From IMG/VR virus record IMGVR_UViG_3300007735_000662, positions 1 to 35,535 of that record: 35,535 nt of DNA. One strand, 5' to 3'. The stretch is from a virus. Position numbers and translations under genes: made by a program. The notes below the pieces were generated by a model, which was given only the letters and a program-made list of their open reading frames with translations, was not told the origin of the DNA and ran no database searches. Shown in pieces: positions 5,938 through 27,728 of the stretch. The first letter of the stretch is position 1; every line of letters starts with the position of its first letter.

Positions 5938-6754
5938 CGTTGGGATTTCCTTTCGATATCGCATCTGCTTCCGCAAGAATCTCCGCTATGATTTCGTTTC
6001 TGATTATGTCGTTCTTGTATGGCTTGCCATCTGCTCCGGGTTTGAGGTCTTGCTTCGACAACCACTCAAGGTAATCCAATCCTTTATTTCCGAAGGCGGC
6101 GATCTGCCGTAGCGTTGAACCTTTATGCTTTCCAAACTTGAGTTCCATATCTCTAGGCTCTCCACCATTCGTCTTGACCGCAACTCCGTTGAGCTTGGCT
6201 GTGATGTCTGCCAGATCGGCCTTGCTTATCGAATCTGACTTAACCTTGTCTAGCTTTGCTGGCTTCGGTGCTTGCTCATACTTGTCCGTGTTTATATCCT
6301 CGAACCCGCCGTGTGGAACTTCCTCGGCTGGTGTGGTAGAGAGGCTCTTATCAATTAGGACTACGATGTGAGCGAAGGCAGAGCGACAAGCCCTGCTGAT
6401 TGCCCTCGTCTGGCACATCGCTCGCTTGGCGTAGGTGGGTCGGTTTGCCCACATAGGCTCATCATCACCCAAGAAACCCTCGGCACTTGATATGACTTGC
6501 CCATTGTCCATCCTCTTGACCTCACCGATGCACCGATAGCCATCTTCGAGACGCTCAACATCTCTGGCAGAGGCCACGCATCCGTGAGCGACTGCGATTG
6601 CTTGCCAGCCCTCGACTCGCACATAATCCTTTTGGCCTATGCGTTGGCAAGTTTCCTTTACTATGGCTCGACAAGCCCCAGCCACATCAGTCGCTTGGCG
6701 AATGTGGGTTGAGACTCCGTTGCCGTTCTGAATTACTAATTGGTTATCACTCAT
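5921..6754 (-). CDS. Putative recombination or annealing protein with SSB-like acidic tail
   Basis: A 277-residue protein with three parts. Residues about 20-150 contain YVRVEGWQAIAVAHG, a beta-rich strip, WANRPTYAKRAMCQTRAISR and a helix. I have seen this arrangement in phage proteins found with recombination genes and it resembles single-strand annealing proteins in general build; no family is certain. Residues about 200-240 (LKFGKHKGSTLRQIA and YLEWL) match the small 'FGKHKG..L..I...YL.WL' domain of the DUF3820/exonuclease X C-terminus type. The last residues, NDEIPF, copy the acidic tip used by single-stranded DNA-binding protein to recruit partners. Together these suggest a single-strand DNA role beside the nuclease and ligase-like genes upstream. 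Confidence 0.55.
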   Translation of the reverse strand: MSDNQLVIQNGNGVSTHIRQATDVAGACRAIVKETCQRIGQKDYVRVEGWQAIAVAHGCVASARDVERLEDGYRCIGEVKRMDNGQVISSAEGFLGDDEPMWANRPTYAKRAMCQTRAISRACRSAFAHIVVLIDKSLSTTPAEEVPHGGFEDINTDKYEQAPKPAKLDKVKSDSISKADLADITAKLNGVAVKTNGGEPRDMELKFGKHKGSTLRQIAAFGNKGLDYLEWLSKQDLKPGADGKPYKNDIIRNEIIAEILAEADAISKGNPNDEIPF

Positions 6755-6984
6755 TATTTCATTCTCCTTATTGGTTGTTGGTTGTAGTCGTAGTCACCCA
6801 GCGACTCACGATCTTCTCTGCTTCCGCTGACTGGCAAATTCAAGCTTCTAAAATCATTCCGCTGGTCGAACTCGGTATCTGGGAAAGCACCGAACACTCT
6901 TACTACCCACTCATCTGTGCTTTCATTTGGTAGCTTTTTATTAGCTGGTTCTTCATACCAGAATGTAGGCAGTTCTTCACTCAT
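6754..6984 (-). CDS. Hypothetical acidic protein
   Basis: A 76-residue acidic protein. The ATG at 6984 is chosen over an upstream in-frame start (7029) because it overlaps the nuclease gene's stop as ATGA. It begins MSEELPTFWYEEPANKK and has WVVRVFGAFPDTEFDQRNDF in the middle and a GDYDYNQQ stretch near the end. The stop shares a base with the next start (TAATG). I recognise no family. Its position between the nuclease and the annealing-like gene suggests DNA processing, but this is inference. Confidence 0.5.
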   Translation of the reverse strand: MSEELPTFWYEEPANKKLPNESTDEWVVRVFGAFPDTEFDQRNDFRSLNLPVSGSREDRESLGDYDYNQQPIRRMK

Positions 6985-7301
6985 TTGCTTTTCCTTTCGT
7001 TTATGGTTTTGATTATCGGAGAAAGCCACTTGGTGCTGATGTCGTGAGATGGCACACGAAAAACTAGGATGCCCATCGATGCGGCGAGATTATATTTTTC
7101 CATATCCTTCAAGAACCCGGATGGATTCGTATGGCGGCCACGCACCCAAATCCCACCCTCCAATTCTACGGCTACGCCCTCGATATGGTAGTAGTCGAAT
7201 CTGAATCTTCTGCCATCAGCAAACTTGTATTCCTTTAACAGCCCCCACCCGCCCAGACTCTTCCAAAGAATCTCAAACTTGGTTGAGGGTGTGAGCTTCA
7301 T
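6981..7301 (-). CDS. PD-(D/E)XK-like endonuclease
   Basis: A 106-residue nuclease-like protein. The active-site pattern is visible: RRFRFDYY (Asp36) and VAVELEGGIW (Glu46, Glu48), then RGRHTNPSGF and DMEKYNLAASMG, ending in the strand ILVFRV. This 'FDF...E.EGG.W..GRH....GF..D..KYN.A...G....R' layout is common in small phage endonucleases related to VSR/DUF559-type or Holliday-junction resolvase-like folds. The substrate is unknown; resolving or trimming recombination or replication intermediates is likely, given the annealing-like and ligase-like genes on either side. The stop overlaps the next start (ATGA). Confidence 0.75.
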   Translation of the reverse strand: MKLTPSTKFEILWKSLGGWGLLKEYKFADGRRFRFDYYHIEGVAVELEGGIWVRGRHTNPSGFLKDMEKYNLAASMGILVFRVPSHDISTKWLSPIIKTINERKSK

Positions 7302-7302
7302 T

Positions 7303-7518
7303 CTAGTTTCTCCCCACCCAGTTCTTGCTAGGTGGGACTAGCTCTGGTTGCTTTGGCTGGTTGCCCTCGGCCACGATCTTGTCCATCTTTTCTAGCTCGG
7401 CGGCCACATACAAGTAGAACTGCCTACGCTCATAGTTCTGCTGGTCGATGTGCTTTGCAAAGAGCCTCACCCCTTGCAGAATGAGAAGGCCAAAGAAAAC
7501 TACTAGGAAAATTATCAC
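7303..7518 (-). CDS. Small single-pass membrane protein
   Basis: The GTG at 7518 is chosen because it overlaps the ligase-like gene's stop as GTGA; a TTG at 7542 is also in frame. The 71-residue product starts with a membrane helix (IIFLVVFFGLLILQGVRLF), then has a charged helical tail (KHIDQQNYERRQFYLYVAAE) and a Pro-rich end. The topology is one pass with most of the protein on one side. It is not in the lysis block, so a holin role is less likely. Function unknown. Confidence 0.55.
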   Translation of the reverse strand: MIIFLVVFFGLLILQGVRLFAKHIDQQNYERRQFYLYVAAELEKMDKIVAEGNQPKQPELVPPSKNWVGRN

Positions 7519-11626: not shown

Positions 11627-14600
11627 CTATTCTAAAACTCGCTTGGCTAGGCTAACAGTAGCTTGTGCGATAACTTGCTCATCCGTTCCATCTGTCTCAA
11701 ACACCTCCATCAATATGTCCCTTTGGCTAGATGTTGATAGGATGGCATTGGCAGAGGCCGTTGTAATGTTGAACTCTGCGGGAATAACATCTGCTGGATA
11801 GGATGGGAGAATTGGCCTAGTCGGAATAGAGAAGTTAATCTTTGGAGAACCCCCAAAGCCCCTGCCCCCATCAATCACTTGAATAGATTGAACTGCACCA
11901 GCCGACAAAACAATCTCCCCCAACGAATACCCAGTTCCAGAAGCATCAGAAATTGAATAGCTGGCGGTACTTCTTGTGTAAAAACTACCACCGCAAACAA
12001 TGGTTATCGAGGAAATGATAGAGCCTTGAGGGGTTGGGACGCTTATATTTGGAGAGGATGTATAGCCATAACCCTGATTAACAATTATAAATTCCCCAGA
12101 ATCGGGATTTGAAGAATAGAACTGAACTTGTGCTGTCTGGCCGCTTGAAGGTGCTGAATCTACAATACAATCATAGGTTGTGGATGGTGTATATCCCCTG
12201 CCAATAGTTGTGATTGAAATAGAGGCTAGTTTCCCTTGCAATGCGTTGGGTGTTGGGGCTGTAATAAATGGAGCAGTAACATACCCATATCCCTTATTCT
12301 GTATGCTGAACCCGTATGAATCATCAGAAACAATAAGTGAAACAATGGCAGTACCGCCCGATGAGGGGCTAGAAGCTACGGTTAAACTATATGTTCCATT
12401 TTCATATCCAACTGGGTTATTTGTTAGACCAAGATTAGATACAAACCCCTGCTCAAAAATGCTCTGCTTGAAGTCTGGTAGGGGAGATTGAGCCGCTGGT
12501 GCTGTTGAATATCCATAGCCGATAAATTCTGTTACTGGCTGGAATCCTTCTGATTGCCTAAACCTAACAATCGGGGCAACCCCGCCAGTTGGTGGTGGTG
12601 TGAACTGCAAATAATAATCCGAGTTATCATAGTAACCACTACCAGCAGATTTCAAATAAACATTAACAATTCCAAAACAAGAAGCAGAAATGTTGGGTTG
12701 AGGGGCGGTGACAACTGGCGATGTCGTGTAGCCATATCCGGGGTTATCAATGGTGACGAAACAATCATCACCTTGAAAATAAAAACTTGCTTGAGCGTTC
12801 CCACCGCTGACTGGGCTTGGCTGAACATCTAGTGGCAAAACAAGTGCATCCTGATAACCCAAACCCCTAGTTGAGACTCTGATAGAAGATATATATCCAG
12901 AGCAAGTAATTGAAATATCTGGTGCTGGTGCTGTTACTATTGGTGCTGTGGTATAACCAAAGCCTTGAGACTCAATATAGGCTTGGTTGTTTTGCATATA
13001 AATGACTGCTGAACCGCCTTGACTTGGGCTAGATTGAACGGAGAAATAGTGCTTATTGTCTATTGAATATCCGTTAGGAGTATTTGTAATGTATGCAAAA
13101 TTAACATTACCGCTTAAAATGTTAGGCTCTGGTGCTGTGATTGTTGGAATTGAAGTATAGCCAGACCCAGCGTTTTGAACATATACATACGGATTTCCAT
13201 TAGAGGTAGGAATAACCATTACCACGGTTGCAGTTGTTCCGCTCGGCGGTTCTTGGGTTGTTAGAATATATTCACCCGGAGAATATCCTTTTGGTTGAGT
13301 AAGCAAGGAAACACTTACCACGCTAGTTACACCCGATGTTTGGCCAGCAGAAATAAATGCGTTCCCTATATATCCAAAGCCGCCGTCTGCAATATAGTAT
13401 TGAATTGTTCCGCTTGAGGGTCTTGTGGCAACCCCTAGTTGCTTTGATACAAGTGTCGGAAGAAAATTCCTTGTACTTACAGAAATTTCTCGATTTCTTG
13501 AATCAGATAGAAAAGAATAATTAGATGCAGAAGAATTAAGCTCAATAAGAGAAAATCCAGAACTGAAAGAACTTGGTGCATACCCAGCACCAAAATCTAC
13601 AATCTCAATAGTTGGCTCATATACTCCACCGCCAACCCCTTGTAGCGTGAAAATGTTAGGTGCACTTACAATTATTGCATTTGTATTAAGAGTTTGGGGA
13701 TTTGTAACAGTAGTAGAGCCATATTTTCTGGTTGAGGTAGAAAGCACAACATCAAATTTACCAATGACATTGTATGATTCATTGATTGGGCTAGTGCTTA
13801 TTTTAAGAATTGCGTACCGAGATGGAGCTTTTGTGTCTTTTGGAACAACGGCAACATAGATATTACTTCTTCCAGCATATATACTGTGACGCGGATTAAG
13901 CTCATTTCGAGGATTTGAACTTCCGACTGTGCCATACAATAGAATGGGCTGTGTAATAGAAGTTTTTTCAATAATTGGGAATTTGCCGGCTCTTACATCA
14001 AATAAATTATTTACCCTAGTTTCTTTATTTAGTGTAAAATAAACTCCACCCTCCTCTAGGGCTACTGGTTTTGTAGAAAGCGATTCATTTATTGATATTG
14101 TTTTTAATCCCAATCCTTCTATTCGTGCGGTAATTGTAACTTTCCCGTCTTGCACAGTTTCAAACTGATATCCAGTATACGCTAGGCCAGCCGATGTGGT
14201 ATTAACGCTTCTGACCACACTTTGGGCATTGACCAAAAAAGAATCCCTAGAAATTGTGGGAGCTGTAATGTACCCATAGCCACCGCAAACTACTGTAATT
14301 TGCCAAGTCGGATTCCCGCTAATAGACGGAGCATAAAAAGATATAAAAGCAGATGGGACGGACAACCCAGTTACGATAGAAGAAGATGTTGGGTCTGTGA
14401 ATAACAGATCGGCTCTTGCGGTTGTGGTTGTTGGGGCTATCCAAGTGAATGAATCTTTCCCATCTATTTTGCCAATATAATTAGATGGCAATATGGAAAG
14501 AACTGCCTTATCTGGTGTAAATAGAGTTACGGATGGATTTGCTGAATATCCGCTGCCTCCATTGATTAGGGAAACCGAAGCAATCTTTCCTCCTAAGGCC

Positions 14601-15406
14601 ACCGCGTTTGCTCTTGCAGATGTTGTTGATGCACCAACAAATGTTAGTGAGTATGTTCCGTCTAGGTATCCATTTCCTATTCCAGAAATTGCTATTGTTG
14701 TGACACTACCTCCGGTCATTGTTGATGTAAATGTTGCCGCTATTGGAGTATTTAGAACGGCAGAAAATGTGACTGGGTTGATTGGTAGAATGGTTAAATC
14801 TAGCGGGGTGTCTACTATATTAAATGCGTTTATGTTTTGTATGTTAAAAGATGCAGTTGGAACGACCGAGCTTGCGATAGAGGCTGTAATTGTTGGAGTT
14901 ACAAGTGCTGGTAGATTAACAAGAGTTTTGGCAGTTGCAGTTACAGCCGTAACAACTTGGATGTTTGCAGAAAATTGAGCGAGCCTAGTTGTTGCAGAAG
15001 TTAAAAATGTGCCAAATTCTGGCGTTTTAGACACGACACTATTGGTAGAAATTCCAGCCGTGATGGTTGCGGTTACTGCTGTAAATGTGATAACGCTTCC
15101 AATAGCAGACGCTTGAGCCGAGCCGAGCGTTACGATTGTTGCCGTGGCCTTGATTAGAGGAAGTGTCGATGCTCCGGGTATTACCCCATCTGCTAGTTTT
15201 GCTGTTGATGTTCCCAAGCGAACTTTAAGCGAAGAACCAAGCGAACCAGTTACAGAAGAGAGCTTGTTGTTATTAACCTTGCGAAGATTGATTTTTGTAG
15301 ACCTTACTTCATCAGAATAAAATGTGGGCTTGTTGGTTGGGATTGTGCTTTCACCATCCAAGAATCTCCCGCTAGATACATCCAGAAATAGCTCTTGAGC
15401 GTTCAC
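11627..15406 (-). CDS. Large repeat-rich tail fibre or adhesin
   Basis: A 1259-residue, beta-rich protein, the largest in the window, in the tail-tip position. Residues 1-230 are Ala/Thr/Val-rich. From about residue 240 the motif 'G.GY...P.....' recurs. Between about residues 675 and 1120 it forms regular units of about 74 residues, each with GYGYTTAPIVTAPAPD-like text (variants GFGYTTAP, GYGYVTAP, GYGYTSSP) and a 'P..GG.A...' hairpin. 'GSGYTSAPTVTI'-type repeats are known from phage structural and adhesive proteins. The C-terminal 100 residues are unique (FETDGTDEQVIAQATVSLAK). The start is a GTG at 15406. Host receptor binding is the likely role. It has no recognised enzyme or trimerisation domain. 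Confidence 0.75.
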   Translation of the reverse strand: MNAQELFLDVSSGRFLDGESTIPTNKPTFYSDEVRSTKINLRKVNNNKLSSVTGSLGSSLKVRLGTSTAKLADGVIPGASTLPLIKATATIVTLGSAQASAIGSVITFTAVTATITAGISTNSVVSKTPEFGTFLTSATTRLAQFSANIQVVTAVTATAKTLVNLPALVTPTITASIASSVVPTASFNIQNINAFNIVDTPLDLTILPINPVTFSAVLNTPIAATFTSTMTGGSVTTIAISGIGNGYLDGTYSLTFVGASTTSARANAVALGGKIASVSLINGGSGYSANPSVTLFTPDKAVLSILPSNYIGKIDGKDSFTWIAPTTTTARADLLFTDPTSSSIVTGLSVPSAFISFYAPSISGNPTWQITVVCGGYGYITAPTISRDSFLVNAQSVVRSVNTTSAGLAYTGYQFETVQDGKVTITARIEGLGLKTISINESLSTKPVALEEGGVYFTLNKETRVNNLFDVRAGKFPIIEKTSITQPILLYGTVGSSNPRNELNPRHSIYAGRSNIYVAVVPKDTKAPSRYAILKISTSPINESYNVIGKFDVVLSTSTRKYGSTTVTNPQTLNTNAIIVSAPNIFTLQGVGGGVYEPTIEIVDFGAGYAPSSFSSGFSLIELNSSASNYSFLSDSRNREISVSTRNFLPTLVSKQLGVATRPSSGTIQYYIADGGFGYIGNAFISAGQTSGVTSVVSVSLLTQPKGYSPGEYILTTQEPPSGTTATVVMVIPTSNGNPYVYVQNAGSGYTSIPTITAPEPNILSGNVNFAYITNTPNGYSIDNKHYFSVQSSPSQGGSAVIYMQNNQAYIESQGFGYTTAPIVTAPAPDISITCSGYISSIRVSTRGLGYQDALVLPLDVQPSPVSGGNAQASFYFQGDDCFVTIDNPGYGYTTSPVVTAPQPNISASCFGIVNVYLKSAGSGYYDNSDYYLQFTPPPTGGVAPIVRFRQSEGFQPVTEFIGYGYSTAPAAQSPLPDFKQSIFEQGFVSNLGLTNNPVGYENGTYSLTVASSPSSGGTAIVSLIVSDDSYGFSIQNKGYGYVTAPFITAPTPNALQGKLASISITTIGRGYTPSTTYDCIVDSAPSSGQTAQVQFYSSNPDSGEFIIVNQGYGYTSSPNISVPTPQGSIISSITIVCGGSFYTRSTASYSISDASGTGYSLGEIVLSAGAVQSIQVIDGGRGFGGSPKINFSIPTRPILPSYPADVIPAEFNITTASANAILSTSSQRDILMEVFETDGTDEQVIAQATVSLAKRVLE
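12000..13400 (-). repeat. Six to seven tandem about-222-bp coding repeats
   Basis: The codons for the 'GYGY' motif recur at about 12061, 12284, 12508, 12729, 12952, 13156 and 13370, giving spacings of 223, 224, 221, 223, 204 and 214 bp. Units share the protein layout 'GYGYT.AP.ITAP.PN' but are diverged at DNA level, so they are old duplications, not recent copies. Confidence 0.75.
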
Positions 15407-16382: not shown

Positions 16383-17675
16383 TTACCCAGTTGCTACTGC
16401 GGCTGGAATTTGCTTTGATAATGCTTTGATTGCCTCTAATAATTGTTTTTGCATATCTACCCCACCACCACCCCTTGCTTTTTCTGCGGCAACTTGACTT
16501 GCTGGTGTCCCGCCTTGCATCGCCCCTAGCTTTTCAGAAAGCAAGGGCATCTCCCCTGCGGCTTGTTGTGAGGCCACTTGCTCCCTCATTTGCTGGGCTG
16601 TTACTGGGGGCAATCCTTTAGCCCTACGCTTAATGTTTTCCTCTGTTTTCATCCTCTCAAACACTTGGTCTTGTGTTTTAAAATCCTCTTTGCTTACCTC
16701 TCTAGCCCTTACTTTCCTTGCCACATCGAGGGCTTGTTGCCCCGCCCTGCTTGCACCTAATAGACCACCGCCAGCTTCTTGTGATCGCTTTGCGGTAATA
16801 GCCCTCTGTTCCCTCTGTACCCTAATAACATTTAATTCTTCTTTTGCTCTTTGTAGATTTGCTTCGCCAAGCTTGACTCTTAACTCATCAATTTTTTTGG
16901 CATCTTGTAGTGCTCCATTAAGCTTAAAAATTTGCTCAATTTGCCATTGATAATTCATAACTTGAAGTTTGCTATAATTAAGTTGATCGACTGCATTCTC
17001 AACAGCACCAGAGCCAGCATTTTCTATTTCATCATAAGCACGAGCAATCTTTCTTAATTCTTTTTCAGCATTTGCGTTCCTTAAATTTTCACTTGAATTT
17101 TTTATTATATTTGCTTCATTTTTTCTGACTTGCACTAATTGTTCTTGAATAGATAAATTTGCTCTTGCGGATTCAATGGCTTTTTCTGTATCCCCAACTC
17201 CAAGGTTTATCCCGGTGAGCGACTCGATGCCTTTTAATATCCCGCCAAAAGCCCCTAGTTGTGTGATCTTTCCTCGTAAAGACTCAATCGTGTCCTCTGT
17301 TTTTTCTAACCCAGCTTGTGCTTGTTCAACGCTTGTGCTTTTGAAGGAAGTCTCAAAGGCATCTGACAAGGCTTTTTGGGAGGCATAGTAGTCGGTTGAG
17401 GCTTGCTTGACTGTTTCTCCAAACTTATTGATTGAGCCAAGAACCGCCGCCCCAAACAACCCACCAGTACCCAAGCGAGCCAATGAGCCGAGGGATGAGC
17501 CAGCCCTACCAGCATTAAGCCCAAGGGAAAGAAGGCTTTTCCCTAGTCGCTCGGTATTGCCACCAGCCCTCTTGAATGTATCGGATGTTTTGTTAGCCTC
17601 TCTCTGAAGGTCTTTTAACGCAGTTGTTCCCTTGCGTCCGTCAATTATTACCTCTCCGACTAGCTTAAAGCTCAT
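16383..17675 (-). CDS. Short tape-measure protein
   Basis: A 430-residue, helical, Ala/Lys/Gln-rich protein with the typical start of tape measures: MSFKLVGEVIIDGRKGTTAL, KDLQREANKTSDTFKRAG and a Gly-rich hydrophobic patch (SLGSLARLGTGGLFGAAVLG, residues about 60-80). Long coiled-coil regions follow (residues about 100-290). Tape measures set tail length at about 0.15 nm per residue, so the tail would be about 65 nm, short for a siphovirus. It lies after the tail chaperone pair as in lambda (G/GT then H), with one extra gene between. No lytic domain is visible. The end is Gln/Ala-rich. Confidence 0.75.
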   Translation of the reverse strand: MSFKLVGEVIIDGRKGTTALKDLQREANKTSDTFKRAGGNTERLGKSLLSLGLNAGRAGSSLGSLARLGTGGLFGAAVLGSINKFGETVKQASTDYYASQKALSDAFETSFKSTSVEQAQAGLEKTEDTIESLRGKITQLGAFGGILKGIESLTGINLGVGDTEKAIESARANLSIQEQLVQVRKNEANIIKNSSENLRNANAEKELRKIARAYDEIENAGSGAVENAVDQLNYSKLQVMNYQWQIEQIFKLNGALQDAKKIDELRVKLGEANLQRAKEELNVIRVQREQRAITAKRSQEAGGGLLGASRAGQQALDVARKVRAREVSKEDFKTQDQVFERMKTEENIKRRAKGLPPVTAQQMREQVASQQAAGEMPLLSEKLGAMQGGTPASQVAAEKARGGGGVDMQKQLLEAIKALSKQIPAAVATG

Positions 17676-17676
17676 A

Positions 17677-18378
17677 TTATCTTTGGAGCTTGTTAAGCCT
17701 CTCTTGCTCCATTTCGAGTATCTTCCCTTTCATATCTTGCTCTTCACGATTAAAGGCTCTTGCCAAAGCTGGTACACCAATTTTTCCAACTCCATTTGCG
17801 GCGTTTGCAAATGTTGTTTTTAAAAAATCTCCAACTCTTTGTGCTGGTATGGCATATCCCTTCCCTGCTGAAGTTTGAGGGCTTGGCTCTCTTTTAATAT
17901 CAGATTCAATTTTAATTCCTTGTTGCTTATATCTATTAAGTGCTGGCAACCACCCCGCCTTTATATATGCCACAGAGCTTTTTGTTGCTTTAACAAATCG
18001 ATCAAATTGTGTACCCATTTGTTCCCAAGCCAATCCCCCACCCCTTAAGTCTGGTCGAAGGCTTCTCGGACGATTCTTTCTTCTCCAATTAAAAATTTTA
18101 TAGCCTACTGGTGCCCCCTTATAGAAGGGCTTAAAGTTTTTTCTTTTGGATTCAGTTTTATTTTTTAATTGCCTTGGAGTCTTAAAGGACTGCACAGTTG
18201 CTTTTAATTCAGCCTCAATTCTTAATGGATTGGTTACCTTTGTGTATTTCATCGCCCACATAATAATGTTGGCGGCTCGTCTATTTACTTCTGTTAAATA
18301 ATCTATATTACGCATTTCAATATACTTATCGATAGTTTTATTGAAATCCTTGGTATCTAGCCTAAACACATTAGCCAT
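17677..18378 (-). CDS. Basic tail protein of unknown function
   Basis: The frame opens with a TTG at 18399; the ATG at 18378 (MANVFRLDTKDFNKTIDKYI) is preferred, although neither has a good ribosome binding site. The 233-residue product is strongly basic (KRKNFKPFYKG, NWRRKNRPRSLRPD). A helical N-terminus is followed by YIKAGWLPALNRY and a helical C-terminus (AFNREEQDMKGKILEMEQER). The 'AGWLPAL' segment between helices recalls minor tail/head-tail proteins of the HK97 gp10 type, but weakly. It sits between the frameshifting chaperone and the tape measure, an unusual insertion point. Confidence 0.55.
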   Translation of the reverse strand: MANVFRLDTKDFNKTIDKYIEMRNIDYLTEVNRRAANIIMWAMKYTKVTNPLRIEAELKATVQSFKTPRQLKNKTESKRKNFKPFYKGAPVGYKIFNWRRKNRPRSLRPDLRGGGLAWEQMGTQFDRFVKATKSSVAYIKAGWLPALNRYKQQGIKIESDIKREPSPQTSAGKGYAIPAQRVGDFLKTTFANAANGVGKIGVPALARAFNREEQDMKGKILEMEQERLNKLQR

Positions 18379-18385
18379 AAATTTA

Positions 18386-18966
18386 TTATCTATCGTCAAG
18401 AAGGGAGTCTAATATGTGCGTTGCATTTTTGTTGTGCCTTCTGACATCAATCCCTCTGTTAATCATTATAGCGTGTTCTAGCTGAACGAGTTGCACTTCT
18501 GCCATTTCCCATAGCACTTGCTCCGCTGTCCAACCGAACTCCTTTGCGAATAGCCAGACGGACGAAGCAATCCCGGCTGGCTGTACTATTTTGGGGAGTC
18601 GCTACCCCCATTTGTCTGCACACGAGCCTCTGAAATTTCAGAGAAGATTTCGTCTACAATCTTTACACCTTCGATAAAATCGGCCTCATTAAATTCATCA
18701 GACCAATTCAAAACTGCCTCCCTAAACTTGGCCTTGTCCCAAGCCAACTTTACTAGCTCCGATCTTGGGTGAGTTAGGCAGTAGAGGCTAGACCAGATAA
18801 AGAACTCGGTAGTATCTGCTTCCTCACGAATCTGGTTCATCACGATTCTTGTCCCAAGGGTGAACTTCCCTACCTTGCTTCCCTTAAACATTCTCTCGTT
18901 TATTACGAATGATTTATCCAAGGCTTTGTTAAGAATCTCCTCATCTTTTTGTAGGTCTAGGTTCAT
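18386..18966 (-). CDS. Tail assembly chaperone, long form made by -1 frameshift (gpGT-like)
   Basis: Reading the short chaperone frame to Lys126 and then slipping back one base gives a 193-residue fusion. The extra 67 residues start IVQPAGIASSVWLFAKEFGW, contain TAEQVLWEMAEVQLVQLEHA and end HILDSLLDDR. The 'FGWT.EQVL.M...QL..LE' text is typical of the T domain in phage tail chaperones. The extension has no good start codon of its own and fills what would otherwise be a 200-base gap. In lambda the G and GT forms bind the tape measure and tube protein during assembly. The join uses the C CCA AAA site at 18595-18589. Confidence 0.75.
18586..18600 (-). other. -1 ribosomal frameshift site C CCA AAA before TAG
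   Basis: On the minus strand, frame 0 reads GAC TCC CCA AAA TAG. The heptamer C CCA AAA is a canonical X XXY YYZ slippery sequence, followed at once by the stop. Slipping back one base gives CCC AAA ATA GTA and enters an open frame of 67 codons. Such sites are conserved in tail chaperone genes. I did not identify a downstream pseudoknot. Confidence 0.75.
18586..18966 (-). CDS. Tail assembly chaperone, short form (gpG-like)
   Basis: The 126-residue unshifted product starts MNLDLQKDEEILNKALDKSF. It contains GTRIVMNQIREEADTTEFFI and a YCLTHPRSELVKLAWDKAKF helix, and ends EARVQTNGGSDSPK just before the stop. This acidic helical form, made in excess, corresponds to gpG in the lambda system. Its start overlaps the upstream stop as ATGA (18966-18963). 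The stop directly follows a slippery heptamer. No sequence similarity to gpG is claimed; the identity rests on gene order, size and the frameshift site. Confidence 0.7.
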   Translation of the reverse strand: MNLDLQKDEEILNKALDKSFVINERMFKGSKVGKFTLGTRIVMNQIREEADTTEFFIWSSLYCLTHPRSELVKLAWDKAKFREAVLNWSDEFNEADFIEGVKIVDEIFSEISEARVQTNGGSDSPK

Positions 18967-19349
18967 AGGTATTTGCTCAATTTCTTTCGCAGTTCTGGGG
19001 ATGCGTTCTTGCTAACTAGCAAGGTTGCTTTCCCAAACTGCTTTTTGACTAGGGGGGTTGCATTGTTCATAGCGTCCAATAGACGCTCTCGGTTCTCTAG
19101 TACGGCTCTGCAGTATGCCAATGGGTCATCGTAATTTGTAATCGCTGACCAACCCTTTTCCCACATATCCACAATCTTACCACCAAGGCCACTAGGGAGG
19201 TCGCTAAAGAAGAATGTAACGCTTCTGCGGTTGCCATCGTCTGCGTCCTCAATGACGGCCATCGGCTCTTTCTCTCTGAATGGGATGCCAAAAGTGGCGA
19301 GGGTTGAGGCGAGTTTGATGTTGCGAGTATAGAGGATTTTTTCTTGCAT
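18963..19349 (-). CDS. Hypothetical tail-region protein
   Basis: A 128-residue mixed alpha/beta protein. It starts MQEKILYTRNIKLASTLATF, has a strand region (SVTFFFSDLPSGLGGKIVDM), a central helix (DPLAYCRAVLENRERLLDAM) and a basic C-terminal helix (PELRKKLSKYL). I recognise no family. It lies between the tail-tube-like pair and the tail chaperone and overlaps the latter by four bases, so it is likely to be made with it and needed for tail assembly. The composition is not that of a surface protein. Confidence 0.55.
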   Translation of the reverse strand: MQEKILYTRNIKLASTLATFGIPFREKEPMAVIEDADDGNRRSVTFFFSDLPSGLGGKIVDMWEKGWSAITNYDDPLAYCRAVLENRERLLDAMNNATPLVKKQFGKATLLVSKNASPELRKKLSKYL

Positions 19350-19368: not shown

Positions 19369-19722
19369 CTAACTTATACCATCGTATCGAACTGCCGTGA
19401 AAGATACCGTCTCAAAGTTATCTGCACTTCTGTTTCTGGCGGTTTCGGTAATGTAGGCCGCACCAGATAGATCGTAGTTGCTTCCGTTGGATACTGTGAT
19501 CGTTGCCCCAACGCTTCCGCTAAAGGTCGTGTATGCACCCTCTACCGAATAGGTGACTTTCTTGTTGCGGAACACTACTGCCGTTACATCCCCACCCTTA
19601 TTCTTTAGCTCAACCGCATCAGCCGAGGCAGAGGACGAAATGGATTGAATCACCATCCCAGTCTGTGCGGAGGCAATCCCGAAGGCGAGGTCTGTGCTAT
19701 TTCCAATGATTGTAGCGGCCAT
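19369..19722 (-). CDS. Tail-tube-like protein, copy 2
   Basis: A 117-residue beta-rich protein starting MAATIIGNSTDLAFGIASAQ. It aligns by eye with the next gene upstream over its whole length: MAAT.IG start, 'FG.A...G.VIQS', 'VELKNKGGDVTAVVFRNKKV' against 'TEVSKHNGTHSAVAFSAYKR', 'YIT....' and the final 'F.TA..YDG'. The spacing of turns and the position upstream of the tail chaperone suit a major tail-tube subunit. Two copies could give a two-component tube or a tube and a terminating ring. The family is not identified. Confidence 0.6.
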   Translation of the reverse strand: MAATIIGNSTDLAFGIASAQTGMVIQSISSSASADAVELKNKGGDVTAVVFRNKKVTYSVEGAYTTFSGSVGATITVSNGSNYDLSGAAYITETARNRSADNFETVSFTAVRYDGIS

Positions 19723-19723
19723 A

Positions 19724-20080
19724 TTATGTATTTAATCCATCGTATGCGGTTGCGGATAGGTCAAAGCTGTTAAAGCCATCGGCGGCTTGTGAGAAAGAAA
19801 CATCAGTTACATAGTAAGTTCCACTAGATACTGCGGCTGTGTTGCCAGTTAGAGCAAGAGTCCCGCCAATCCCAGAGGAGGCAACCGCACCGCTACAATT
19901 ACCAGAAAGACTAACATTCCTTTTGTAAGCAGAAAACGCAACGGCAGAGTGAGTACCATTATGCTTTGATACTTCGGTTGTCTCTGCTGTGCTTGTAAGT
20001 GAGAAGCTCTGAATAACAACGCCAGTTTCAGCGGCGAGTCCAAAGGCAACGGAAGAAAGTCCTATACTTGTAGCGGCCAT
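19724..20080 (-). CDS. Tail-tube-like protein, copy 1
   Basis: A 118-residue protein starting MAATSIGLSSVAFGLAAETG. It is similar by eye to the gene at 19369-19722, including VVIQSFSLTSTAETTEVSKH, the 'V.F......V..S' strand, TYYVTDVSFSQAADGFNSFD and a YDG end. It is one base from the second copy. The low charge, Ser/Thr/Ala-rich beta composition and place in the order between connector proteins and chaperone suit the major tail protein. Which copy forms the tube cannot be told. Confidence 0.6.
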   Translation of the reverse strand: MAATSIGLSSVAFGLAAETGVVIQSFSLTSTAETTEVSKHNGTHSAVAFSAYKRNVSLSGNCSGAVASSGIGGTLALTGNTAAVSSGTYYVTDVSFSQAADGFNSFDLSATAYDGLNT

Positions 20081-22595: not shown

Positions 22596-23078
22596 TTAAA
22601 TCGCCCCGATATATTGCGAGTTGCGATAGTCTGAAAAATCTAGGGATGCGATGTAAGGGAACAGCCTTGTGCCTATAACCCGCAAGCTTAACCCCCGCAC
22701 CCAAGCCCTCTTGTCGTTTCTGATAGTTGGTGTTTGGCTGGTTATCCTTGCCATATAAACTTTAAGGCTAGTTGTCTCGCCCTCAATCCTAGCCGCCAAG
22801 GTTGAACCCTCCTCGTATAAGGCTTGGAATATATTAAAATAGTTAGACTCAAAAGTTGCTTGGGTAGTCCTAACAGTTGAATCTGAATAGCTTAACTCAA
22901 CTGGTATCTCGAATACTCCCGATGCTGGGACGATAAGCTGACCGCCTATCTGGGAACTAATAGTTACATAGGGAAAAAATCGCCCACCCCTTCTATTTGA
23001 AATATACACATTAAGCCCAGAAATTGGCGTTAATAGCCCCGCCAACGCATCTTCTAGGATAAACTGGGGTGAGGTCAT
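22596..23078 (-). CDS. Tail terminator/completion-like protein, copy 2
   Basis: A 160-residue protein with the same layout as the gene before it: 'L.DALAGLLTPISGLNVYIS', '.RGGRFFPYVTISSQIGGQL', 'P.SGVFE', 'LSYS....TT', 'IFQALYEEG' and 'TP.IRNDKRAWVRGLSL'. Placed after the connector and before tail tube genes, this size and fold sketch fit the tail terminator or tail completion (gpU/gpZ-like) position. It starts at an ATG overlapping the upstream stop (ATGA). The C-terminus extends about 25 residues more than copy 1. Identity rests on position and the pairing. Confidence 0.55.
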   Translation of the reverse strand: MTSPQFILEDALAGLLTPISGLNVYISNRRGGRFFPYVTISSQIGGQLIVPASGVFEIPVELSYSDSTVRTTQATFESNYFNIFQALYEEGSTLAARIEGETTSLKVYMARITSQTPTIRNDKRAWVRGLSLRVIGTRLFPYIASLDFSDYRNSQYIGAI

Positions 23079-23485
23079 TTAGATGTGCAAAGGATGTCTA
23101 GTGAGGTTGTTTTAGTCCAAATACGCCTATCATTGATGATTCCGGGTGATTCGGTCATAACCTTGCATTGAAATACCTTTAGATCGTTTGTGGTAAGGAT
23201 GCTTTCTATTGATGGACTTTGATAGAAGGTCTGGAGAATTGAGAACCAAGTTGCGTCTAGGACTTGCCTAGTCGTTGTGTCGGCTCGTGCTGAATAGGTT
23301 AAAGTCCCTCCACACCTAAACACACCAGAGTTAGGGGAAAGCTCCTCCGAGCCTATACCCACCTCAATCGTTAGGCTTGGCAAAAGCCTCTCCCCATCAT
23401 AGTTGCTTTTCGTGATATTAAGCCCACTTATGCTAAAGGCCGAGGCGAGGCTGTCCTCAAGCTCTCTCTCGATTGCAACACTCAT
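23075..23485 (-). CDS. Tail terminator/completion-like protein, copy 1
   Basis: A 136-residue protein starting MSVAIERELEDSLASAFSIS. Motifs shared with the next gene are SGLN, 'P.LTIEVGIGSEELSPNSGV', 'LTYSARADTTTRQVL', 'ILQTFYQS', LKVFQCKVMTESPGIINDRR and a W. It is probably a tandem duplication. The placement right after the connector-like gene matches head-tail completion proteins. No residue-level function can be shown. Confidence 0.55.
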   Translation of the reverse strand: MSVAIERELEDSLASAFSISGLNITKSNYDGERLLPSLTIEVGIGSEELSPNSGVFRCGGTLTYSARADTTTRQVLDATWFSILQTFYQSPSIESILTTNDLKVFQCKVMTESPGIINDRRIWTKTTSLDILCTSK

Positions 23486-23831: not shown

Positions 23832-24500
23832 TCATCCAAGTTCTACGCTATCCCAAATAAAGATATTATCCTTGGCAAATGGCTCTATGGTTTGGGGAAA
23901 ATAAACAACTTTCTTATCTTTTCTCACCCCAGCCGCTATTGCCATTTGCCCACTATCTATTGACCAAAACTCTTCAGCCCCTCGGATTGCCCTAGCTAAC
24001 TCTGGGATGCTTGAGGCTGTGTAGGTTTGCAATCCCTTAATCTCTGTGCCTTGGCATAGGACAAAGAAGTTGTCCCCACCGCACTTCTTCCTTGCTTCAA
24101 CGATGATTTGCAGGGGGTCTCTCTTGTGCCCTTGGCTTATTCCAAAGGGGGCAACCATATTATAGGTTTCCGGCAATCCTTTGGCTGGGGCATCGTCCAG
24201 CTTATCGAACAGAATGTCCTTTGGGTCTGCCTTGTTAATCTCTTGGTGGGCATATACAAACTCTGTCCAAGTCTTGCCAGAGAAACGATATTCTTGGTAT
24301 TTGTTAGGCCAAATTTCAAGGTCTATAACATCGCCCTTGTTCCCAACTTTAACATAAGAAACCATCTCGAAGATGCCGTGGTATTGGGGCAAGCAATCAA
24401 AGAATACCTCGTGGCCTTGATCGGCTAGATATTTGCAAGCTGGGAGGCAACGAATGATGTCTCCTAACCTCTGGGAGTATTTGATTGTTTTAGCAATCAT
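23832..24500 (-). CDS. Glycosyltransferase family 9-like (heptosyltransferase-like) protein
   Basis: A 222-residue protein with the build of ADP-heptose:LPS heptosyltransferases. The N-terminal domain starts IAKTIKYSQRLGDIIRCLPA, where 'GD.....P....L' binds the donor side. The C-terminal domain has NMVAPFGISQGHKRDPLQII and FFVLCQGTEI, then SSIPELARAIRGAEEFWSID and SGQMAIAAGV, matching the 'D.G..H.A...G' end with Gly-Gln in place of the usual His. It is short for GT9 (about 320 residues), so it may be trimmed. It overlaps the preceding gene by 11 bases. It is the last gene of the sugar cassette. Confidence 0.65.
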   Translation of the reverse strand: MIAKTIKYSQRLGDIIRCLPACKYLADQGHEVFFDCLPQYHGIFEMVSYVKVGNKGDVIDLEIWPNKYQEYRFSGKTWTEFVYAHQEINKADPKDILFDKLDDAPAKGLPETYNMVAPFGISQGHKRDPLQIIVEARKKCGGDNFFVLCQGTEIKGLQTYTASSIPELARAIRGAEEFWSIDSGQMAIAAGVRKDKKVVYFPQTIEPFAKDNIFIWDSVELG

Positions 24501-25257
24501 CGGCTACGCTCTTATCGTGTAGGTGGGGGAAGTATTCGCTCAATCGAACCGGGCCGACTGTCTTTTGTAATTCTTTCCAACCATCCACCAATCCCTTGTA
24601 TCCATAAAAATCTTCCTTAAACTCAACTTGCTTCTGGATTGCGTAGGCATAGTGGTTGAATACCAGCCCCCAAGTTTCAGTCACTCCCCTTGGAACTAGG
24701 CGAGACTGGATATTTAGGCGGGGGGGTTCGTGGCTAGTGAAGCATACACTCTTTCCCCACTTCCACGCCCTCATCCATTCATACCAATTTGAACCCAAGC
24801 CTTCTCTGGTAACTACTCGCTTATTTTCCCCGACAAAGAAGTTACAATGGAACTGCATCGTTGCCCCTTCCTCTGCCCCCTTGAGACACTCATAAATTCC
24901 CTCGATCTGTTCTGCTCTCCACATCTCGTCAGCGTCCACCTCCATAACAACGCCATCATCTACACCGAACAAGGCTTGCTGAATCATCTCTAGCTTTCCG
25001 TTAAAGGGCTTGCCTTGCGAATGAACAATCACATTCCCCCCTTGGATGCTATTGAGATATTCGTGTGTTCCGTCTATGCTCTTAAAATCCTTGTGCCATT
25101 TGTCGGGAACTTGCTTGCACCAGCGGGTGCATCCTAGAGGCTCGCTAACCCCCTCGACAATCCTCCACCTCCAAGGAATCTTTAGCTTTTGAAATTCTGC
25201 AAGATGCCTCTCGATAAAGGGCATCCCATTGAGGACGATGGTAAAGATGGTTAGCAC
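24490..25257 (-). CDS. GT2-like glycosyltransferase
   Basis: A 255-residue GT-A fold protein. The start MLTIFTIVLNGMPFIERHLA is the usual 'I.IV.NG...I...L' beta-strand opening of glycosyltransferase family 2. The metal-binding DxD is in VVMEVDADEMW (residues 103-113). A Trp/His-rich acceptor region follows (NWYEWMRAWKWGKSVCFTSH). It starts with GTG at 25257, overlapping the methyltransferase stop by seven bases. It probably adds a sugar to a phage or host polymer together with its neighbours. Donor and acceptor are unknown. Confidence 0.75.
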   Translation of the reverse strand: MLTIFTIVLNGMPFIERHLAEFQKLKIPWRWRIVEGVSEPLGCTRWCKQVPDKWHKDFKSIDGTHEYLNSIQGGNVIVHSQGKPFNGKLEMIQQALFGVDDGVVMEVDADEMWRAEQIEGIYECLKGAEEGATMQFHCNFFVGENKRVVTREGLGSNWYEWMRAWKWGKSVCFTSHEPPRLNIQSRLVPRGVTETWGLVFNHYAYAIQKQVEFKEDFYGYKGLVDGWKELQKTVGPVRLSEYFPHLHDKSVADDC

Positions 25258-25862
25258 AATTTGAAGATGGCCGCACCATTACGAACCGACCAATCCTCCC
25301 AAAGCAATTCCGCAAATCCCTTTAGCTTGTGGTAGTTCGCCCAGTTCTTAATATCGTTCACATCATCCAAGGCTATGATTGCCTTCTCCGCTAGGAATGG
25401 CCTTACGCAACGCAGTTCAGCCTCACCAGAAAAGGGAGAGCCATCAATCAGCACGAAGTTAAAGTCCACATTATGCTCAAAGTGGATGTCCTCGATTGCG
25501 TTGGTCGAGTATGGGTAGGCGGTCTCTAGGCAAACATTGTGCCAGCCTAGGATTGTTTCGATGGGGTATTGGTTGAGATTGGTTTTTGTGATTCGGTAGA
25601 ATTCCTCGATGTCGTTCTTGTTCATCCAGAATTTCGACAAGGTTGCAGTTCCGTTGATGGCAACGCCTCCCCTTGTAGATAGGTTCATTGAGTGCCTACC
25701 GATGCGGTCTGGGTGGTTCTCGATGCTGAATAGCCTTTTTGTCCTAATACATTGAGTTGAGCCATCCCCAGTTCCTCCCCCGATTTCTAGGCCAACCTCT
25801 AGCCCATCGCTATACTCTGCAAGGGCTTTTCCGAATGAATCGTGAATGGTTACTTCTTGCAT
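25251..25862 (-). CDS. Class I SAM-dependent methyltransferase
   Basis: A 203-residue protein. Motif I, LEVGLEIGGGTGDGST (residues 21-36), is a typical glycine-rich SAM loop followed by the acidic end of strand 2 (LFSIENHPDRIG, Glu48). Later come VDFNFVLIDGSPFSG (Asp and Pro of motif IV-like strand 4) and IALDDVND, resembling class I enzymes of the Methyltransf_24/FkbM broad group that methylate sugars. It lies in the middle of the glycosyltransferase cassette, so a sugar O-methylation is likely, but the substrate is inference. Confidence 0.7.
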   Translation of the reverse strand: MQEVTIHDSFGKALAEYSDGLEVGLEIGGGTGDGSTQCIRTKRLFSIENHPDRIGRHSMNLSTRGGVAINGTATLSKFWMNKNDIEEFYRITKTNLNQYPIETILGWHNVCLETAYPYSTNAIEDIHFEHNVDFNFVLIDGSPFSGEAELRCVRPFLAEKAIIALDDVNDIKNWANYHKLKGFAELLWEDWSVRNGAAIFKLC

Positions 25863-26104
25863 TTTGCCATCTCGGATAATGCTTTTTTAATTGCGTACTC
25901 AATCACGGCCTCTGGGTCGTGCCTCAAGGCAATCATCCCAGCCTCATACAATTCCTTCCCTGCCTTCTCATCATAGGTAATATCGACTAGCACATACCTT
26001 GTTTTGTCGGTGCGTGATTTGCCGAAGGTAATCATACCAAGCCCCTTCGTGTTCTCTCCCTTTTTTGCTTTCCTACACCCAATTATTTGCTTTGCGTTTT
26101 TCAT
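25850..26104 (-). CDS. Small protein in the sugar cassette
   Basis: An 84-residue basic mixed protein. It begins MKNAKQIIGCRKAKKGENTK and has a beta pair (LGMITFGKSRTDKTRYVLVD) and a C-terminal helix (DPEAVIEYAIKKALSEMAKC). I recognise no family. It overlaps the end of the double glycosyltransferase gene by 32 bases and the start of the methyltransferase by 13, so it is squeezed between them and likely co-translated. Confidence 0.5.
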   Translation of the reverse strand: MKNAKQIIGCRKAKKGENTKGLGMITFGKSRTDKTRYVLVDITYDEKAGKELYEAGMIALRHDPEAVIEYAIKKALSEMAKCKK

Positions 26105-27728
26105 AGATTGCTTTCCCTTTCTCGTAGTATTCTGGTTTGTTGTGGTTCTTTAGTTGTTCGTCGGGGTTGCCTCCTGCAAACATAGGGTTCTCGTGCTTAA
26201 AGACCAAATCCCTAGCTTCAATTACACAATCGTCTTGGTAGGCTCTATCCGTGAACTCGTTGTCGGAATAGATACCATCACTATCTTGGTAGTCTGGGTG
26301 GAACATATAGCCCCCCTGCTTCCGTAGCCTCTTTTGCGTTAGGATAGCCATACAAAGCAGTTTATCAGTCCGAAGGCCATCTGATACTGCCACCACCCTT
26401 TCGGCCTCTACATTGTCGATCTTGGAGCAAATTAGGGCATCCCAGTACCTCGGTGGACTCCAATCATCGCTCATTTGAATAAGAATCTCGCCCTTGGCTA
26501 TTTTCGCCCCCGCATTCCAAGCATTGATAATTCCACCCGGATTAACCCTTTTGCCCTCGTGTGGGGTATAATCCACCTTCTCGTCCTCATCGACCATAAA
26601 CAACCACTCGATTGCTAGGGGTTCTCTAGCTAAAGCTAGCCATTGCATCTTTCTCTGAAAGGCCAACTTGGGGCGGCCTCTCGTAGCGTGGATAACGCTG
26701 ATCTTTGGCTTTGGGTACATATTGGAAAGTTTCTGTGCTTCCTCTTTTTGTCCGTAGCAGATAGAGGCCATCCGATATCCGTCTAGGGCTTGCCATTCGT
26801 AGATTGCGTGAACTTGATTCCAGTAGTGAAGGCTCGGCTTCGGCATCGCCATACAAGCCCTTCCAGAGTGCCAAGCCTTCGACCATTCCCCCCTAGCTGA
26901 ATACTCTGCCATTAAATAAAAATAAGCCTCTCTGCGAATAGGATTAACCCCAATCGCTTCCCCTAAATACCTAAACCGCTTCTCGCTTGGAGAGCATCTC
27001 CCAAGGTTGCATAGAAGTTCGTATTTGAGAGTTTCGTCTAGGTCTGAGAAAGCCAACGCCCTTTCCCCCACTTCAATCGCTTTATCCACTTGACCCCTCA
27101 AGAAAAACTCTTGGTGCTGATAATAAAGGTGGAATGGGGTAGAGGTTAATTCATCAGCTAGAATGCGATGGTTTCTATCTGCCGAATCTGCCTTGCTGGT
27201 GATTGGGCGATGAATCCTAAACACCTTATCAACTGCCAATAACTTGTTCCTATCGTTTGGCTCAAGGGCTTCGTGAACTCGATTCCTCCACCTACCACAT
27301 CCCTTACGCAAGGCCATCTCTCGAATTGGATTCAACCCGGCGTTCTCAACTAGATATCTAAAACAAACAATTTCAGACCCAACTTTCTCTGCTTGTTCTA
27401 GCCCCTCTTGCAAAACCTTCTCCCCATCCTCTGCCATTACATCATCGGCATCTACCCAGATAGACCACTCGTTTTTACAAGCATCGAGGGCTGTGTTTCT
27501 GGCTGTTGCGAAATCGTCTATGTGAGGCCAATCAGTTTTTTTGTTTTTGTAATGAATGACTTTAGCTCCAAGCGAAAGGGCGATCTCCTCTGTCTTGTCT
27601 GGCGTAGCTGACCCCCTAGCCATACAAACAATAATTTCTTCTGCGATGGGCTTAAAAGACTCAATGACTCGCTTGATGTGTGCTTCTTCATTTCCAGCGA
27701 TTAGGTAAAGGGATATAGGGATTTTCAT
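26073..27728 (-). CDS. Double-domain glycosyltransferase with TPR-like linker
   Basis: A 551-residue protein made of two glycosyltransferase domains. Domain 1 (residues 1-about 190) is GT2-like: ISLYLIAGNEEAHIKRVIES and WSIWVDADDVM (DxD at 93-95). A helical TPR-like stretch (about 200-335) joins it to domain 2 (about 341-520), which starts PKISVIHATRGRPKLAFQRK, has FMVDEDEK and a second carboxylate pair in GEILIQMSDDWSPPRYWDAL. This layout suggests successive transfers by one enzyme. It lies directly after the major capsid gene and its terminator. The ATG at 27728 has no clear ribosome binding site. The donor sugar is unknown. Confidence 0.8.
   Translation of the reverse strand: MKIPISLYLIAGNEEAHIKRVIESFKPIAEEIIVCMARGSATPDKTEEIALSLGAKVIHYKNKKTDWPHIDDFATARNTALDACKNEWSIWVDADDVMAEDGEKVLQEGLEQAEKVGSEIVCFRYLVENAGLNPIREMALRKGCGRWRNRVHEALEPNDRNKLLAVDKVFRIHRPITSKADSADRNHRILADELTSTPFHLYYQHQEFFLRGQVDKAIEVGERALAFSDLDETLKYELLCNLGRCSPSEKRFRYLGEAIGVNPIRREAYFYLMAEYSARGEWSKAWHSGRACMAMPKPSLHYWNQVHAIYEWQALDGYRMASICYGQKEEAQKLSNMYPKPKISVIHATRGRPKLAFQRKMQWLALAREPLAIEWLFMVDEDEKVDYTPHEGKRVNPGGIINAWNAGAKIAKGEILIQMSDDWSPPRYWDALICSKIDNVEAERVVAVSDGLRTDKLLCMAILTQKRLRKQGGYMFHPDYQDSDGIYSDNEFTDRAYQDDCVIEARDLVFKHENPMFAGGNPDEQLKNHNKPEYYEKGKAIYEKRKANNWV

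Follow-up and report, generated by a model that had tools for sequence, protein, structure and literature searches.

A conserved -1 frameshift signal in the tail operon of uncultivated tailed phages that very probably yields a lambda-like chaperone pair

An uncultivated tailed phage very probably uses a -1 frameshift in its tail operon to make both a G-like protein and a rarer G-T fusion, which would form a chaperone pair of the lambda kind. We analysed the 35,535 nucleotides of IMG/VR record IMGVR_UViG_3300007735_000662 as a whole (hereafter the window), and all coordinates refer to it unless another contig is named. The mechanism itself is of a known kind, as -1 frameshifting that makes a short and a long tail-gene product is well known in phages. 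New here are its persistence across a group of diverged phages, a hairpin that probably stimulates the slip, an SD-like stretch that probably does likewise, a revised start for the downstream gene and a protein family left unnamed in the libraries searched. The frameshift signal is clean and backed by sequence comparison, in phages whose versions of these proteins have no relative in the cultured-phage collection searched, and it points to a role for two proteins without a name in the profile libraries. The system itself is ordinary in kind and belongs to a new, divergent family; what stands out most in it is the hairpin.

The slip site and its two reading frames

The elements of the site, all on the minus strand, are as follows.

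18586..18966, minus strand: short-form G-like ORF (G), 126 aa, C-terminal end SDSPK followed by the stop
18603..18610, minus strand: SD-like stretch TGGGGGTA (GGAGG in most relatives), 7 nt 5' of the heptamer
18589..18595, minus strand: slippery heptamer CCCAAAA in phase C CCA AAA (X XXY YYZ), sequence invariant in 32/32
18586..18588, minus strand: zero-frame stop TAG, abutting the heptamer
18583..18588, minus strand: 6-nt spacer from heptamer to hairpin, of the same length in all members
18552..18582, minus strand: putative stimulatory hairpin, marked by covariation and synonymous-site constraint
18386..18589, minus strand: T-like -1 frame (T), 67 codons plus TAA (18388-18386), predicted to be reached by frameshift

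The 3' end of G reads GAC TCC CCA AAA TAG (126 codons, 18966-18586, minus strand). The first-pass annotation had proposed a -1 frameshift between 18386 and 18966, limits that are exact, and had placed C CCA AAA directly before TAG, where it indeed lies (heptamer 18595-18589, stop 18588-18586). A -1 shift at the heptamer gives CCC AAA ATA GTA CAG..., whose translation begins IVQPAGIASSVWLFAKEFGW, and the predicted G-T fusion has 193 residues. We regard programmed -1 ribosomal frameshifting at C CCA AAA as well supported by the comparative sequence evidence. The tRNA-Pro on CCA and the tRNA-Lys on AAA would slip back to CCC AAA and proceed in the T frame, while the majority of ribosomes would terminate at TAG to leave the 126-aa short form, making the 193-aa fusion the less abundant product. 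That ribosomes actually slip here, and at what rate, we infer from the signal.

Taken by itself, a single genome is weak evidence, since XXXYYYZ heptamers are frequent (76 on the window's minus strand, including eight copies of CCCAAAA) and an open stretch of 67 codons has a chance of about 0.02 by itself. The case for the frameshift rests on the heptamer being in phase in all the sequences compared below. The downstream frame had been described as 67 codons with no start of its own; the length holds, and the second part is true in practice but not to the letter, as the window has candidate starts at T codons 25 (GTG), 29 (ATG), 32 (GTG) and 42 (ATG) and none in codons 1-24.

Conservation in relatives and selection on both frames

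Scans of viral contigs gave 31 that span the site, whose G proteins share 58-98% identity with that of the window, and one further, truncated contig (L049) that carries T only; broader profile scans returned no contigs beyond the same 32. No relatives were found in the bacterial genome collection or in the cultured-phage collection searched. The 32 sequences compared (the window and its 31 relatives) comprise several diverged groups and are partly non-independent, with L002/L003 and L079/L080 near-identical at the site. The first-pass annotation had made its proposal depend on conservation of the heptamer and of the downstream frame, and both are strongly conserved: all 32 sequences, including those with as little as 58% G identity, have CCCAAAA in the same phase, and T is open in all 31 relatives, at 65-70 aa. 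The zero-frame stop follows the heptamer directly, or one codon later (CAA TAA) in L078-L080.

In eight representatives, G codons 1-121 gave a dN/dS of about 0.05 and T codons 14-60 one of about 0.10. Across the T region, each of the two remaining frames contained 3-8 stops in 11 of 11 sequences checked. The low ratio and the stops in the other frames together argue that T is translated as protein, and the substitution pattern thus places T under protein-level selection.

The hairpin and the SD-like stretch

The putative hairpin consists of a 5' arm at 18582-18573 (AGCCAGCCGG), a loop of 11 nt and a 3' arm at 18561-18552 (CCGTCTGGCT), with one internal mismatch. Nine of the ten stem positions are paired in most members; the tenth is a C-U mismatch in the window and G-U in the group of L077, L081, L082 and L083. 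At one stem pair C-G is replaced by the compensatory U-A in L077 and L083, and other pairs shift to G-U. Across the alignment 90% of the stem cells are paired, compared with 19-48% in slid versions, and the stem's pairing and covariation were matched by one of 500 shuffles. RNAalifold picked the same stem unprompted, and the 31-base segment adopted it in nine representatives, with a mean z of -2.0 over all members. Counting against the hairpin, a different structure is favoured, with z about 0, when 69 nt of the window are folded as a single sequence. The 68-nt stretch 3' of the heptamer has a family mean z of about 0, that is, no excess stability. An alternative strong fold 20-70 nt 3' of the heptamer in the window was rejected, as it is not common to the family, and we do not claim a pseudoknot between loop and downstream sequence, for which the possible pairings vary by subgroup (judged by eye).

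Synonymous sites record selection on the RNA itself. Over G122-T13, pS was 0.06, against a median of 0.70 in windows outside, and none of 100,000 random 18-codon sets had synonymous divergence as low. The hairpin occupies T codons 3-13 exactly, and the synonymous constraint stops where the hairpin stops. On these comparative data the hairpin is under RNA-level selection, and it probably boosts the slip. A second, milder synonymous dip (pS about 0.3) lies at T codons 25-43 or so, around T's internal ATG. An Rfam scan and a tRNA scan were both empty.

Upstream, 4-8 bases ahead of the heptamer, the SD-like stretch falls within the strongest 2.5% of G positions in 32/32 sequences, and in the 25 close members the Gly120 codon is always GGA or GGG. 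From its sequence it is a probable upstream stimulator of the slip, and we grade it no higher because L082 and L083 have a weaker version. Neither the hairpin nor the SD-like stretch featured in the first-pass annotation. A ribosome would pause at the hairpin 6 nt downstream, probably aided by the SD-like stretch, with a higher slip rate as the expected outcome. The -1 signals of E. coli dnaX and of IS elements combine an SD-like stretch, a heptamer and a stem-loop. The site described here shares this three-part layout, with the stem-loop 6 nt downstream, but lies in a different gene, slips on C CCA AAA where those signals have A AAA AAG, and carries an SD-like part of unequal strength among members.

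Other routes to the same gene arrangement were weighed against this frameshift. T could be a separate gene, started internally at GTG codon 25 or ATG codon 29, in which case the heptamer would be incidental; most members do have internal GTG or ATG codons in T, and the secondary synonymous dip near T25-T43 would fit such a start. However, conservation within T is highest over codons 1-24, ahead of any ATG, GTG or TTG in the window, and in the relative L083 T contains none of these codons anywhere, so T must be entered from G; the conserved heptamer and hairpin also speak against a separate gene, which we consider very improbable. Similarly little weight goes to a fusion made by transcriptional slippage or stop readthrough in place of a ribosomal -1 slip. 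The short homopolymer pair CCCCAAAA might invite polymerase slippage, but runs of four fall short of what it usually needs; readthrough would lead into a zero frame that closes 35 codons past TAG and is not the conserved frame; and a hairpin 6 nt downstream, within the 5-9 nt expected of a stimulatory stem-loop, fits a ribosomal signal. The same homopolymer-like CCCCAAAA could attract indels, yet a sequencing error or a decayed gene is refuted by conservation, with the identical break in 32 separately assembled, truly diverged sequences and purifying selection on both G and T, and its probability is close to nil.

Tail region and the putative chaperone role

The genes around G and T, also on the minus strand, are listed here.

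17677..18378, minus strand: gene after T, likely start ATG 18378, gene order conserved
16383..17675, minus strand: candidate tape measure protein, 430 aa, from a weak PHROG match and its position
18963..19349, minus strand: 128-aa gene whose 3' end overlaps the G start (ATGA)
19369..20080, minus strand: two small paralogues, 117 and 118 aa, candidate tail tube proteins

For the next gene, the start is very probably ATG 18378, 7 nt past the T stop, and not the listed TTG 18399. With this start, T fills the apparent gap of about 200 bases, as the first-pass annotation had proposed. Some relatives carry an extra gene of about 250 aa directly after T (in L004, for example, at 6578-7327 on the plus strand), and the spot therefore looks like a site of gene exchange; the last few residues of T vary along with this extra gene.

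The tape-measure candidate is long and helical, measures 430-485 aa in relatives, and has a weak PHROG tape-measure match (E 0.004). The tail-tube candidates (19369-19722 and 19724-20080) are 36% identical and lie side by side in relatives too; one relative's copy has a very weak PHROG major-tail match (E 0.1), and the two may perhaps form a two-component tail tube. G and T are thus flanked by tube candidates and a tape-measure candidate in a conserved order, in which the identities come from weak matches and one gene intervenes.

Profile searches of Pfam and PHROGs with G, T, the fusion and the neighbours gave nothing significant, and nothing in Pfam, PHROGs, the PDB or the cultured-phage collection identified G or T as a chaperone. 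A match of phrog_11996 to T residues 10-29 appeared in three relatives only, at E 0.01-0.2, and was rejected. Sequence and fold searches of the PDB gave no credible match, including for the G model (pLDDT 78), whose one significant BFVD match is A0A6J5S158, an uncharacterised protein (E 6e-4, TM 0.70). Little can be read from the fold search with T, whose model reached a pLDDT of only 66. Chaperone families of the G/GT type are very divergent, and a sequence or fold match is not required for membership. Gene order and the two-product architecture point to a tail-chaperone role for G and T, by analogy with lambda. Of the earlier description as a -1 frameshift in a tail chaperone, the conserved frameshift signal stands, whereas the chaperone label draws on position and architecture and has no naming match behind it.

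A real frameshift in a gene pair with some other virion or regulatory role would agree with the lack of homology to known chaperone families in the Pfam and PHROG searches and with a best BFVD structural match to an uncharacterised protein. Against it stand the conserved position, with small tail-tube-like genes on one side and a long helical tape-measure candidate on the other, and the short helical G joined to a short T by a -1 shift, which is the usual architecture of a chaperone pair. We judge such another role unlikely, though less so than the alternatives to the frameshift itself, and take the pair as likely to work like lambda G/GT.

In lambda, the tape measure protein is the partner bound by the G part and the tube protein that bound by the T part, with a 30:1 ratio that results from the low level of frameshifting (PMC5009743). 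If the pair described here works as lambda gpG/gpGT does, G would coat the tape measure protein and T would bring in subunits of the tail tube, and both G and G-T would be absent from the finished virion. The systems are alike in having a short product and a rarer -1 fusion from a small tail gene 5' of the tape measure gene, and in the X XXY YYZ slip. The window differs from lambda in its heptamer, C CCA AAA with a stop immediately after, in a T of only 67 aa, in an extra gene between T and the tape-measure candidate, and in G and T sequences without detectable similarity to any family in the libraries; the conserved downstream hairpin and the SD-like stretch are also counted among the differences of this group.

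The ratio of the two products may differ here as well, because the hairpin is conserved, whereas certain tailed phages shift without stimulatory signals (PMC5009743). It is conceivable, if rather doubtful, that the three-part signal of SD-like stretch, heptamer and hairpin is set to give far more of the long form relative to the short one than in lambda, perhaps matched to the short tape-measure candidate (430-485 aa). Should the hairpin indeed raise the slip rate, these phages would offer a natural test of what fixes the short:long ratio of the chaperone when the tape measure is short.

Elsewhere in the window, a second adjacent pair of paralogues (22596-23078 and 23075-23485, minus strand; 37% identical) is kept in relatives. 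Several ORFs at 23832-27728 (minus strand) resemble glycosyltransferase-type and other enzymes, as judged by eye from their translations, and sit between the capsid-region and tail genes, an unusual place. At 11627-15406 (minus strand), a 1259-aa protein contains many imperfect repeats with GYGYxxxP-like motifs and is perhaps a tail fibre or tip protein.
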